Origin: a virus
Length of the DNA: 56,932 nucleotides
IMG/VR virus record: IMGVR_UViG_3300032294_002078
Coordinates: 1-56,932 of that record
Direction: 5' to 3' (one strand)
The position numbers and the translations under genes were made by a program. Below are positions 28,284-33,361 of the stretch, one piece after another (the first letter of the stretch is position 1; each line of letters begins with the position of its first letter). Below the pieces are notes generated by a model. That model was not told the origin of the DNA and made no database searches. It was given only the letters and a program-made list of their open reading frames with translations.

Positions 28284-28769
28284 ATGCCAGTATTGGATCC
28301 TAATGAAATAATGTTCACAGCGTTTGAACCGACAGTATCAAATAGATTTGTGATGTACATTGATGGTATTCCTTCTTACATGATTAAGAAGGCAGACGCA
28401 CCAGGTGTAACTTTAAATGAGATCAAACTCGACCATATCAACGTTTACCGTAAGATTAAAGGTAAAGCTGAATGGAGAGATATGAGCTTAGCACTCTATA
28501 ACCCAGTATCTCCTTCAGGACAACAAGCTGTAATGGAATGGGTACGTCTTCACCATGAATCAGTAACTGGTCGTGATGGTTATTCTGACTTCTATAAGAA
28601 AGATCTTAACTTGTCTATTTTAGGTCCAGTAGGCGATATTGTAAGTGAGTGGATTGTTAAAGGTGCTTTCATTAAAGAAGCTACTTTTGGAAACTATGAC
28701 TGGTCAACATCTGATCCAACTGAATTGACTATTTCAATAGGAATGGATTACTGTGTATTAAATTACTGA
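28284..28769 (+). CDS. Tail tube protein (T4 gp19-like)
   Basis: 161 residues, close to T4 gp19. Family features are FTAFEPTVSNRFVMYIDGIPSYMIKKADAPG, DHINVYRKIKGKAEWRDMSLALYNPVSPSG, and the end LGPVGDIVSEWIVKGAFIKEATFGNYDWS. It forms hexameric rings of the inner tube through which DNA passes. Like the sheath it shows optimised codons (CGT, AAC, TTC). It is followed by a strong terminator, and in this genome by an inserted homing endonuclease. Confidence 0.93.
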   Translation: MPVLDPNEIMFTAFEPTVSNRFVMYIDGIPSYMIKKADAPGVTLNEIKLDHINVYRKIKGKAEWRDMSLALYNPVSPSGQQAVMEWVRLHHESVTGRDGYSDFYKKDLNLSILGPVGDIVSEWIVKGAFIKEATFGNYDWSTSDPTELTISIGMDYCVLNY

Positions 28770-28827: not shown

Positions 28828-29475
28828 ATGCTCAAAAATTACTTTGCCATTATAAGAAAGGCAATATCAGAAGAAAGAATAAAAGGTCAAGACAAGTATT
28901 ACGAGAGTCACCACATCGTACCACTATCATTTGGTAAGAAAAGCAAGACTGTTTTATTAACTGCTGAAGAACACTATAAAGCTCACAAATACCTCGCAGA
29001 AGCATTTAAACAACATGCAGTATATGGAAAGAAAATGCTATGGGCATTTCACAGAATGACTTATAATAATGGCAGGAATATAACTGAACAAGAGTATGCT
29101 GAGGCAAGAGAACTGTTAATGGCTCTTTGGAAGAGAAAAAAGACAGAGTCTTTTAAACAGTCTATGAGTACTAAAATGAAAGGCAATAAAAATGGTGTTG
29201 GTAATAAAAAAAATTGGACTCCATCAGAAGAAACTAGAAAAAAGTACTCAGAATTAGCTATAAAAAGGCAAACTGGTAAAATCGGACAATTTGCAAATGC
29301 TAGTAAAGGATCTGTAATTTATGAATCAGAATCAGGACAAATAATAGAAGCAGGAAGTGCTTTACAATTAAGTAAAATATTAAAAGTAAATCCTAGTACT
29401 ATACAATTTAGATTAAAAGATAAGCATGGGATTATGCTAAAAGGTTATAGTGTAAGATACAAAGAGCTTTACTAG
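28828..29475 (+). CDS. HNH homing endonuclease (free-standing)
   Basis: 215 residues. An HNH-type motif occupies the N-terminal region (ESHHIVPLSFGKKSK near residues 26-40; LTAEEHYKAHKYLAEAF). A NUMOD3-like DNA-binding segment (KMKGNKNGVGNKKNWTPSEETRKKYSELA) and a NUMOD1/IENR1-like C-terminal helix-turn-helix (SALQLSKILKVNPSTIQFRLK) follow. This is the modular form of phage mobile endonucleases. It lies between tail genes that are usually adjacent, with its own terminator and promoter-like box. Its target is probably the cognate intergenic or flanking sequence in related phages. Confidence 0.85.
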   Translation: MLKNYFAIIRKAISEERIKGQDKYYESHHIVPLSFGKKSKTVLLTAEEHYKAHKYLAEAFKQHAVYGKKMLWAFHRMTYNNGRNITEQEYAEARELLMALWKRKKTESFKQSMSTKMKGNKNGVGNKKNWTPSEETRKKYSELAIKRQTGKIGQFANASKGSVIYESESGQIIEAGSALQLSKILKVNPSTIQFRLKDKHGIMLKGYSVRYKELY

Positions 29476-29532: not shown

Positions 29533-30300
29533 ATGTCTGAACAAAAGTTTACAGTACCAACAGAATTAATCGACCTACCTTCTAAAGGTCTTATCTATCC
29601 TAAAGAAAATACTCTATCATCTGGTCAAGTTGAAATGAAGTATATGACGGCTAAAGAGGAAGACATCCTTACAAACGTTAACCTGCTGCGCCAGGGCCTC
29701 GCCATTGAGAAGATGCTCAAAAGCCTAATAAAAGCACCAATTAATTATGAAGACATAACCTTAGGTGACAGGAATGGCTTATTGATCGCTGCTAGAATAT
29801 TAGCATACGGAAAAGATTATTCTTTTATGTATAAAAATCCTAATACAGGCGAAGAAGAAAAAGTAACTATTGATTTACAGAATCTTAAATATAAAGAATT
29901 AGATTGGACTTTGTTTAACAACAAAAACGAATTTGAATTCAAACTTCCTAAATCAGGAAATGTAATTACATTTAAAATATTAACTGTATCAGATGATAAA
30001 AAAATAGATGAAGAAATTAAAGGCGTAAAAAAGAATTTAGGTCTAGAAGCAGGAGCTGTTTCAACAAGACTTAAACATCAGATTGTAGCTATTAATGGAG
30101 ACTACTCAGTTAAAACAGTCAGAGACTTTATTGATCAAGGATATTTACTTTCAATGGATTCTATCGAACTCCGTAAATATATAGCATCTATTACCCCAGA
30201 TATATTAATGAATACTACAGTTATATTGTCAGATGGTAGTGAAGTAGATTTAGACTTACCAATGACGATAGATTTCTTTTTTCCCGGGAGCGGACTATAG
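29533..30300 (+). CDS. Baseplate hub/tail-assembly protein (T4 gp26-like family), probable frameshift donor
   Basis: 255 residues. The N-terminus (VPTELIDLPSKGLIYPKENTLSSGQVEMKYMTAKEEDILTNVNLL) matches the T4_baseplate family that includes T4 gp26. By position, between tube and tape measure, it takes the place of the tail-assembly chaperone of other tailed phages. It ends ...DFFFPGSGL. The last codons run through TTTTTTCCCGGG and a perfect six-base-pair hairpin that contains the stop codon in its loop. The +1 frame stays open into the next gene, so a longer frameshifted form is likely. A GC-rich patch lies near 29660-29725. Confidence 0.75.
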   Translation: MSEQKFTVPTELIDLPSKGLIYPKENTLSSGQVEMKYMTAKEEDILTNVNLLRQGLAIEKMLKSLIKAPINYEDITLGDRNGLLIAARILAYGKDYSFMYKNPNTGEEEKVTIDLQNLKYKELDWTLFNNKNEFEFKLPKSGNVITFKILTVSDDKKIDEEIKGVKKNLGLEAGAVSTRLKHQIVAINGDYSVKTVRDFIDQGYLLSMDSIELRKYIASITPDILMNTTVILSDGSEVDLDLPMTIDFFFPGSGL

Positions 30301-30306
30301 GTCCGC
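30277..30306 (+). other. Candidate programmed +1 (or -2) frameshift site
   Basis: The slippery run TTTTTTCCCGGG (30277-30288) is followed after one base by the hairpin GCGGAC-TATAG-GTCCGC (30290-30306). The zero frame stops at TAG 30298-30300. The +1 frame is open from 30272 through 30568, because its preceding stop, TAG, is at 30269-30271. CCC is a known +1 slippery codon, and a -2 slip on T6 gives the same downstream frame. Confidence 0.55.
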
Positions 30307-30310
30307 ATTC

Positions 30311-30568
30311 ATGACAGAGGTTTTTGAATTAACTTATCACGGTGGTGGGGGATTTACCTATTCTGAGGTTTGGAATATGGATATTCCTAAAAGACGCTTT
30401 AATCTTAAAAAGATATCAGAATATCTAGAAAAGATTGAACAGATGCGTGATCAAAGCCGTCAACAAGTTACTGAAAAAACTGATATGAGTAAGTTTAAAA
30501 TACCGGATGCTGTAAAAAATAAGTTAGATCAGCCTTCATTTGTTTCCAAAGTAAAAAACAAAAAGTAA
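30311..30568 (+). CDS. Probable tail-assembly chaperone extension (frameshift acceptor)
   Basis: 85 residues if it starts at ATG 30311, ten bases after the stop of the preceding gene. The sequence TYHGGGGFTYSEVWNMDIPKRRFNLKKISEYLEKIEQMRDQ has the short Tyr/Trp-rich, MxIPxRRF pattern found at the C-terminal part of tail-assembly chaperones just before tape measure genes. The frame extends upstream without a stop to 30272, so it can also be made as a fusion to the protein at 29533. Reinitiation at the ATG is the alternative. It should bind the tape measure during tail assembly. Confidence 0.65.
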   Translation: MTEVFELTYHGGGGFTYSEVWNMDIPKRRFNLKKISEYLEKIEQMRDQSRQQVTEKTDMSKFKIPDAVKNKLDQPSFVSKVKNKK

Positions 30569-30595: not shown

Positions 30596-33361
30596 ATGGC
30601 AGATAACCAAAATACACCAGGCGGACAAACACCTAATCAAGGATCTAATCAATCTAGATCTACAGGAAAAGAACTTTTAGATAGTCTAAAAGAACAGCTC
30701 CGATTAGAAGGTGATTATAGAGATATATTAAGAGATTCTGTTAGAGAATTACAAAAAGCTATAAAACAGCATGATACTATTGCGGCTAAATTAGAATCCT
30801 ATAGTACTAGCACTATTAATATAAAACAAGTTCAACATGAGATAAATCAAAATCTCATAAAACAAAATATAAATAAAATAAAGCTTACAGAATCTGCTGC
30901 AAAATTAGGAGGTATAGAATCAGATCAAGTTAAAATAGCAAATCAATACCTAACAGAATTAGAAAAGAGGCAAGAATTAGAAGGAAATTATATTAATAAA
31001 AGACAAGAACTTATATCTTTTGAAAATAAATTTAAAGAAACAAAAAAACAAGAATATAATGCTTTAAATGATTATTATAATAAATTAGAAGACCAAAGAA
31101 AGTTAGAAGAATATATTGTTAGTTTATCTGAAAGAGGATTAGCAGATAATGATTTAGTTGTTGTAACTAAAAAAAGAGAATTAGATGCATTAAAAAATCA
31201 AATTTCTTTAAAACAACAATCTTTTTCAGCAGACCAACAAGCGTTTATTAATACTAAAAATATTTTTGATCAAGCAAAAGAAGCTGTAGATAAACAAGAA
31301 GAAAAAGTATCTACTATACAACAAGGATTAAATTTAGAACAAGCTGCATATATCCAAGCTAAAAAAACAAATGAGTTATATGATTCAAATAATGAGAAAT
31401 TAAAAGAACAAGAAGAATTTGAAAAAAGATCTCAAAAAAATGCAGGAGTTCTTGGAAAATTAGTTGGTGGTTTAGCTAATAAGTTTGGAATAGGTGAGCA
31501 AGTACAGCAGGATATGGTGGCTCAACAAAAACTTTTAGCCGCCCAATCAGATGCTTCTGGAAAAAAATCCGGTACTTTTTCTGATAAATTTAGTGTTGCA
31601 AAAACTGGTATTAAAAGTATAGGAAAAGGAATAGCTGATAATTTTAAAACTGACCCAGTATTTAAATTTGGCGCAGCTTTAGGAGTTGTAGGACTTGCGT
31701 ATAAAGGATTATCAGCAGGTTTTGATATGGTAGGAAATGCAGCAGCAAAAGCAGGTAACTTTATGGCAGGATTATCTGAAGATTCAGGTAATTTAGTAAG
31801 AGGCCTTACAAGTGGAATGTCTGATTTAGCAAGAAAAATACCTTTAGTAGGTGGACTTCTAGGAGGTTTAATAGATGGTTTTTCTGCTTTACTAGATTTA
31901 GTTCTTGGTGTAGATAATATGATTGTTAAAACTGGAAGACAATTAAATCTTTCAGCAGAAGGTGCAAGAAATCTATATAGAAATCTAGCAGCAGCATCAC
32001 AGGCATCAGGAGATATTTACATGACCGGTAAAAAATATCTTGAGTCTCAATTAGAATTAACACAACAATTAGGTATTACAAATATTCTTAATCAAGAAAT
32101 ATTAAGAACTAATATTAAATTAAAAGATTTTGCTGGTCTAGAAGCAGATACTCGAGCACGAATTGCAGAATCTGCTCAAATTACTGGTGCAGAAGCTGAA
32201 GATACAGTTAAATCTGTACTTGGTCAAGTTAAAGGATTAGAAAGAGCAACAGGTGTAAGTTTTCAATATCAACAAGTATTAAAAGAAGTATCAAGTCTTG
32301 GAGGTTATTTAGGACTTCAATTTGCAAAATATCCTGAAAAATTAACAAAAGCATTTCTTAGCACTAAAGCTTTAGGTTTAGAACTAAAGCAATTAGATGG
32401 GATGGCAAGTTCATTTTTAGATTTTGAATCATCTATATCAAAAGAATTTGAAGCTCAACTTTTAACAGGAAAAAATATTAATTTAAGTAAAGCTAGAGAA
32501 TTATTTTTAAATAATGATTTAGCAGGCGCCGCTGCTGAAATTGCAAAGCATACAGGAGACGCTGCAGGATATTCTAAAATGAATAGAATACAACAAGACT
32601 CTTTAGCTGAGGCAATGGGAATGAATAGAGATCAAATGGCAGATATGCTTAAACAACAAGAGCTATATTCTAAATTTGGTGTTAAGAATAGAGAAGATTT
32701 ATTAAAACAAGTAGATTTATTAAGAACATCTGGTAGAGAACAAGAGGCAATAAATAAAGCCGGTGGTGAAGCTGCATTTAATGATTTAGTTAGAGCATCT
32801 GCACAAGAAAAACTTGCATTAACTATAGAAAAAATAAAACAATCTATTGTAGAATTTGTTGAGCGTAGTGGAATCATTGAAAAAGTAGAAGCGTTTGTAG
32901 ATAAACTATCTAATCCTGAAACTATTAAAGGTATAATAGGAACTATAAGAGATACAATTTCAACTTTTATTAAAGTTGCTGGGGAAATGTTAGCTGATGT
33001 TATTGAAATTGGTGGAGAAATAGCTGATATGCTCACTCCATTTGGTAGTATTGACTATAGTGAAAAAGCTAAAATAACAGGAGATAAAATAAGAGCGGGA
33101 TCTATAGAAATGTCTGATAGAGTTAGTGGTCTTGGAAATTATGCTATAGCTTCAGTAGAAAATGCCGCAGCAAAAGATAAATTGAAAACAGAAACAGCCG
33201 CTACTAAAGCTGCTGATAATAGTATGAGTATGGCAAAACCCACAAAAGAAAATCTTAATGTTAATGTTTATCAAACTACATATGTTGTAGATCATAAAAA
33301 AGATACAGAAACTAGAATAGACATGGCCCCTAATCAAGATATTAAAACAGGAAGAAAATAA
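30596..33361 (+). CDS. Tape measure protein
   Basis: 921 residues. The start is a low-complexity Asn/Gln/Gly segment, then long charged coiled coils to about residue 290 (RELQKAIKQHDTIAAKLE; QEEFEKRSQKNAGVLGKLVGG). Hydrophobic Gly/Ala-rich segments follow at about 355-440 (KFGAALGVVGLAYKGLSAGF; IPLVGGLLGGLIDGFSALLDLVLGV), typical of the part that contacts the host inner membrane. A further helical half follows. The position between chaperone pair and baseplate genes agrees. It is longer than T4 gp29 (590 residues), so a longer tail is expected. Confidence 0.85.
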   Translation: MADNQNTPGGQTPNQGSNQSRSTGKELLDSLKEQLRLEGDYRDILRDSVRELQKAIKQHDTIAAKLESYSTSTINIKQVQHEINQNLIKQNINKIKLTESAAKLGGIESDQVKIANQYLTELEKRQELEGNYINKRQELISFENKFKETKKQEYNALNDYYNKLEDQRKLEEYIVSLSERGLADNDLVVVTKKRELDALKNQISLKQQSFSADQQAFINTKNIFDQAKEAVDKQEEKVSTIQQGLNLEQAAYIQAKKTNELYDSNNEKLKEQEEFEKRSQKNAGVLGKLVGGLANKFGIGEQVQQDMVAQQKLLAAQSDASGKKSGTFSDKFSVAKTGIKSIGKGIADNFKTDPVFKFGAALGVVGLAYKGLSAGFDMVGNAAAKAGNFMAGLSEDSGNLVRGLTSGMSDLARKIPLVGGLLGGLIDGFSALLDLVLGVDNMIVKTGRQLNLSAEGARNLYRNLAAASQASGDIYMTGKKYLESQLELTQQLGITNILNQEILRTNIKLKDFAGLEADTRARIAESAQITGAEAEDTVKSVLGQVKGLERATGVSFQYQQVLKEVSSLGGYLGLQFAKYPEKLTKAFLSTKALGLELKQLDGMASSFLDFESSISKEFEAQLLTGKNINLSKARELFLNNDLAGAAAEIAKHTGDAAGYSKMNRIQQDSLAEAMGMNRDQMADMLKQQELYSKFGVKNREDLLKQVDLLRTSGREQEAINKAGGEAAFNDLVRASAQEKLALTIEKIKQSIVEFVERSGIIEKVEAFVDKLSNPETIKGIIGTIRDTISTFIKVAGEMLADVIEIGGEIADMLTPFGSIDYSEKAKITGDKIRAGSIEMSDRVSGLGNYAIASVENAAAKDKLKTETAATKAADNSMSMAKPTKENLNVNVYQTTYVVDHKKDTETRIDMAPNQDIKTGRK

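Follow-up and report, generated by a model that had tools for sequence, protein, structure and literature searches.

A likely programmed +1 frameshift in a T4 gp26-type tail gene, with site and reading frame conserved among related phages

The main finding of this work is that a gp26-type gene in the window (the whole stretch of 56,932 nucleotides of viral DNA that was analysed) very probably yields both a short and a long tail assembly chaperone (TAC-N and TAC-NC), the long one through a +1 frameshift at a CCC codon. Comparison of related genomes gives strong support to programmed frameshifting; a frameshift is very likely, its +1 direction is likely, and the chaperone function is well supported by family and context. 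In the proposed mechanism, most ribosomes would stop at the TAG at 30298 and release a gp26-type chaperone of 255 aa, and a minority would shift one base forward at UUU UUU CCC GGG to give a protein of 344 aa reading ...FFFP-GADYRSAFMTEVFELTYHGGGGF... across the junction. The likeliest slip would be that of the peptidyl-tRNA on CCC, re-pairing to CCG while a slow codon waits in the A site, this codon being the rare GGG here or a stop in some relatives, and in this lineage a hairpin just downstream would aid the +1 slip. A slip of tRNA-Phe from UUU to UUC would produce an identical peptide, and sequence alone does not tell it from the slip on CCC. By analogy with the gpG/gpGT pair of lambda, coating of the tape measure protein would fall to the short form and recruitment of tail tube subunits to the extra domain of the long one. 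We infer the exact slip codon, the efficiency, the stimulation by the hairpin and the chaperone function from these comparisons.

Tail assembly chaperone frameshifts are usually of the -1 type. A conserved +1 shift in the T4 gp26 family would mean that the direction can switch with the two-product outcome being kept. A review of 2016 describes G-T frameshifting as conserved among the long-tailed phages, with T4 as the exception, and precedents for +1 shifts are the CCC_UGA sites of Listeria phages and the archaeal virus HSTV-2 (PMC5009743). Frameshifted tail-helper genes are therefore known, and it is the forward-shifting form in a T4 gp26-type gene that looks new.

The junction, the protein family and its genomic context

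The gp26-type gene, the proposed TAC-N, occupies positions 29533..30300 of the plus strand, on which the shift site, hairpin, stop, extension, ATG, tail tube gene and tape measure gene described below also lie, and its 3' end reads TTC TTT TTT CCC GGG AGC GGA CTA TAG. Within it, the shift site TTT TTT CCC GGG (TTTTTTCCCGGG, 30277..30288) occurs once in the window, compared with 0.01 copies expected by shuffling. Its proline codon CCC (30283..30285) is the proposed slip point or, should tRNA-Phe slip on UUU-C instead, the slow codon in the A site, and the GGG that follows represents only 8 of the 331 glycine codons in sampled window genes. The zero-frame stop TAG (30298..30300) lies within the hairpin loop. 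A TAG at 30269-30271 interrupts the +1 frame, which is then free of stops from 30272 until the one that ends at 30568; the extension read in it (30287..30568, 93 aa, from GADYR to KNKK) is the proposed C-terminal (T) domain of TAC-NC. This frame also holds an ATG (30311..30313) that annotation tools would call as the start of a separate gene of 85 aa. The slippery run, the hairpin with the stop in its loop and the +1 frame open back to 30272 are all present as an earlier note on this DNA had described them. The GC content of the window is 32%.

The 255-aa protein matched PF12322 (T4_baseplate; E 7.7e-11, 42.5 bits against a curated cut-off of 24.5), which in the Pfam result is the family holding both T4 gp26 and gp51, and phrog_150 (E 8.8e-15). 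For structure prediction the two halves of the chaperone were modelled separately, the short protein apart from the extension. The AlphaFold2 model of the 255-aa protein reached a pLDDT of 89 and matched gp26-family proteins of T4-like phages in a viral structure library, among them that of Bacillus phage SP-15 (E 1e-16). Against the PDB, the fold search with this model yielded nothing significant; YqbN (3klu), a prophage protein which we take to belong to a chaperone family, obtained a fold probability of 0.13 and does not count as evidence. Pfam and PHROGs searches with the extension returned no family, and PDB sequence searches returned no match.

The order of the genes is sheath, tube, TAC and tape measure. 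The tail tube protein (gp19 type, 28284..28769; phrog_4542 tail tube, E 3e-20) shares 60% identity with the tube protein annotated in Microcystis phage Mel-JY01. The 921-aa protein encoded at 30596..33361 is assigned as the tape measure because it resembles the one annotated in Flavobacterium phage immuto (26% identity over 357 aa, E 1e-25). The gp26-type gene is thus located downstream of the tail tube and upstream of the tape measure, as are the G/GT-type chaperones with programmed frameshift, and this order, the family and the domain architecture favour the tail-chaperone reading that the earlier note had put forward.

An alternative in which the frameshift is real and the product is a component of the baseplate hub is unlikely, although it is the one that best survives. 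The databases name PF12322 a baseplate protein and phrog_150 a baseplate hub, and some genetic studies put T4 gp26 in the hub (PMC3004832); however, that review treats both gp26 and gp51 as hub assembly chaperones and reports that gp51 is absent from the final particle (PMC3004832). Both the short/long architecture and a location ahead of the tape measure gene follow the pattern of tail assembly chaperones, and the tail assembly chaperones of T4-like phages were identified by Vladimirov, Gautam and Davidson in 2022, as cited in PMC10885494 and PMC12846349. As cited there, some T4-like phages have one short and one long chaperone gene (PMC10885494) and poly-T sites are noted in T4-like TAC-N genes (PMC12846349). 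Together with the Pfam result for PF12322, these citations indicate that the T4 chaperone pair is gp26/gp51. By these citations the chaperone identity of the family was therefore already known, and with the -1 version seen in cyanophage-type genomes a gp26-type chaperone now has precedents, a point on which the earlier note needs correction. The literature searched, in which the 2022 study was represented through the papers citing it, contained no description of a +1 version in the gp26 family.

Between the tail tube and the gp26-type gene there is a free-standing homing endonuclease ORF (28828-29475; phrog_655, E 8.9e-24), which has the sole strong Shine-Dalgarno-like sequence (GGGAGG) upstream of a start among the 14 starts listed; since the other listed starts are unlike it in this respect, a recent acquisition of this ORF is suggested. 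Bacteroidota ribosomes depend little on Shine-Dalgarno signals. The host of this uncultivated phage is probably a Bacteroidota bacterium, since the metagenome-assembled genomes in which relatives were found carry the labels Flavobacteriales, Winogradskyella and Sphingobacteriales. A near-identity search of phage records gave no match.

Comparative evidence for the proposed fusion

Related loci were sampled in two sets, eighty through the gp26 protein and eighty through the extension alone, with some contigs in both. In 122 distinct junctions (window included) the extension and the end of the gp26 gene overlap, with the extension in the +1 frame; 51 of these junctions have no ATG from -30 to +45 nt around the zero-frame stop, and 26 have no ATG, GTG or TTG near it. 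The homologue alignment that the earlier note had proposed thus bore out its frameshift reading, since the relatives keep the slippery site and the open +1 frame, many of them without a second ATG. The hairpin is common among them but not universal. Loss of the slippery run in homologues, or +1-frame stops before the second ATG, had been named as contrary findings by the same note, whose reading survives this test.

The distance between the proline codon and the zero-frame stop varies from 0 to 15 nt between relatives, therefore what is conserved is the +1 frame and not the end of the first protein. In 31 aligned close relatives TTTCCC is invariant and the interval from CCC to the ATG contains no indel. 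Over the eight codons between site and ATG, the +1 frame gave a pN/pS of 0.28, as compared with 1.35 for frame 0 and 1.76 for frame -1, and third-position diversity was concentrated in the +1 frame with a permutation p of 2e-5, a value that is only indicative because the compared sequences share kinship. The invariant Arg and the near-invariant Tyr of the extension both precede its first ATG. These comparisons show that the extension is under selection as coding sequence of the +1 frame and is contiguous with the gp26 gene, with both site and frame conserved.

The same data bear on whether two separate genes could explain the locus, in which case ribosomes that have stopped at 30298 would re-initiate at the ATG at 30311 and translate the 85-aa ORF by itself, without making a fusion protein. 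This ATG, 13 nt past the stop, is retained in close relatives, and lineages hit by an endonuclease do carry the extension as a separate ORF. A simple two-gene operon was nevertheless rejected, on the junctions that have no ATG nearby and on the +1 selection and the most conserved residues (Y and R) situated before the ATG. In addition, the sequence preceding the ATG differs from that of other window starts, with 9 A/T in the 20 nt upstream as compared with 15 to 20 at 13 other starts. We therefore regard separate translation as the sole explanation as improbable, even if some independent initiation at 30311 may occur, given the conservation of the ATG in close relatives.

Proposed slip codon, direction and hairpin

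Of 43 distinct close genes, 42 use CCC for the proline of the site, whereas CCC makes up only 3 of the 343 other proline codons in these genes. Judged by this bias and by its recurrence together with the frame in the 122 junctions, the site is not a product of chance. The codon after CCC is GGG in 36 of the 43 close genes and a stop in 5, and TAG or TAA follows CCC directly in L012, L017, L024, L039 and L042. The latter resemble the CCC_UGA sites of the Listeria phages PSA, A118 and A500 and of E. coli pheL, in which the shift codon is also a CCC that is rare in the genome and precedes a slow codon or stop (PMC5009743). Those shifts, however, take place in capsid or tail-tube genes or in a leader peptide, whereas the one proposed here belongs to a putative chaperone gene in which CCC is mostly followed by GGG. 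A more distant group has TTT TTT TGG CCT GAC as its common motif, which is not a textbook +1 signal. The CCC GGG, CCC TAG, CCC TAA, CCC AGT and CCT GAC variants would constitute a natural system for the study of +1 frameshifting in Bacteroidota.

The earlier note had left the direction as +1 or -2. If tRNA-Phe slipped back two bases on the T run, the downstream frame would be identical and the product would carry one extra Phe; the T run is common, and a -2 shift has a precedent in the tail genes of phage Mu (PMC5009743). The run is interrupted, however, in L013, L040 and L051 (TTC TTC TTT CCC) and in L055 (TTT TTC TTT CCC), variants that would force tRNA-Phe to pair with TCT, and the elements that are conserved are the CCC itself and the slow codon next to it. 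The -2 alternative is disfavoured by these four relatives and seems slightly more improbable still than the two-gene one; the +1 shift, which suits the site variants better, is favoured. A sequencing or assembly indel splitting a single continuous gene, to which homopolymer runs are prone, is ruled out because many independent assemblies and isolates, which together provide more than 120 distinct junctions, agree in the frame relation while their stops differ in type and position.

The hairpin GCGGAC-TATAG-GTCCGC (30290..30306) has a perfect 6-bp stem and begins one base after the shift site. The local RNA around it has a predicted energy of -14.3 kcal/mol (z -3.7 against shuffles). Twelve doubly compensated cells were counted, a value reached by none of 500 shuffles, and the covariation score was 0.229, as compared with at most 0.058 in slid controls; the changes from GCG/TCC to GCC/TCG are synonymous in the +1 frame. 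The perfect hairpin of the earlier note is present and covaries, but it is not universal, since the full stem is absent from about seven relatives (L013, L028, L036, L041, L044, L052 and L056) that retain the site and the frame. For this reason we consider the hairpin a likely stimulator and not a requirement, that is, a lineage-specific aid.

Related systems and lineages without the proposed fusion

The +1 extension also occurs in the isolated phages immuto, Mel-JY01, GXN1, SP-15 and LIS04 and in the 484-kb genome LR756508, most of them without an ATG near the site, and its annotation there is either absent, a split protein or a separate hypothetical protein. A conserved domain would thus have been missed or shortened in deposited genomes, as in immuto, SP-15 and LIS04. 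Other genomes with gp26 genes of the same family, syn9 (L111), HTVC008M (L112), phiM12 (L114), Atu_ph07 (L104:4784) and LR756511 (L087/L116), have the T domain in the -1 frame at T_TTT_TT[T/C], in contrast to the +1 frame at TTT CCC of the window; in syn9, HTVC008M and phiM12 the overlapping T-domain ORF begins at a conserved Phe-Phe. Re-initiation may occur in phiM12, Atu_ph07 and LR756511, since an ATG overlaps or closely follows the stop. In Salmonella phage Vi01 (L113, around 2263) a T-domain-like ORF was also seen in the -1 frame, the gp26-type gene there ending in GAAATTTTCATTTAA without a standard slippery heptamer.

Campylobacter phage CP220 and T4 have two PF12322 genes each. PF12322 is common to the T4 pair, gp26 (short) and gp51 (long), and to the window gene; T4 has two separate genes and no frameshift, whereas the window has a single gene with a proposed +1 shift. 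The extra C-terminal domain of gp51 is homologous to the T domains of cyanophage type and, through them, perhaps to the window extension. In hhalign comparisons, the window extension matched the T domains of jumbo phages (P 93%, E 4e-7), the pooled +1/jumbo set matched the cyanophage-type T domains (P 93%), and these matched the C-terminus of T4 gp51 (P 96%, E 3e-9). The direct comparison of the window extension with gp51 was not significant (P 0.9%), the link being made only through intermediates, and the pooled +1/jumbo set reached P 21% against the gp51 C-terminal domain, above 100 of 100 shuffles. The likeness to lambda gpG/gpGT, a short chaperone and a long form made by frameshifting that act together with the tape measure protein (PMC5009743), is one of logic, with no sequence similarity claimed, and lambda shifts by -1 whereas the window would shift by +1. 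Whether a single orthologous chaperone gene of the T4 superfamily has arrived at its short and long products by several routes (in Bacteroidota phages a +1 shift at a Phe-Pro site, in cyanophage-type genomes a -1 shift at the same Phe-Phe, paralogues in T4 and a separate T-domain gene after a homing endonuclease has invaded the frameshift site) is in our opinion an evenly balanced question.

Some lineages seem to manage without the fusion, since a few (L053, L143, L145, L148 and L150) carry the extension as a separate ORF, mostly with its own ATG. The codon is CCA and the overlapping +1 arrangement is lost in L053, L143, L148 and L150; L145 retains CCC without this arrangement, and L138 and L149 have CCA with it. 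An endonuclease-like ORF lies exactly between the zero-frame stop and the extension in L053 (4766-5365, with a NUMOD1 motif, E 9.5e-6) and in L143 (about 890 to 1530). In both, the extension is equipped with a separate ATG and a repeated FPGPEYR leader, while TTCTTCCCAGGA, which is synonymous with the slippery version, now stands at the original site. An Rfam search of the L053 insertion found no intron. On our interpretation L150, L138, L145, L147, L148 and L149 look like remnants of such insertions. If the gene has indeed taken several routes, endonuclease insertion at the frameshift site would offer a natural path by which a recoded fusion became split genes. The near relatives L147 and L148 differ in CCC-C versus CCA and in the frame relation of the extension, a difference that possibly reflects a recent loss of frameshifting.
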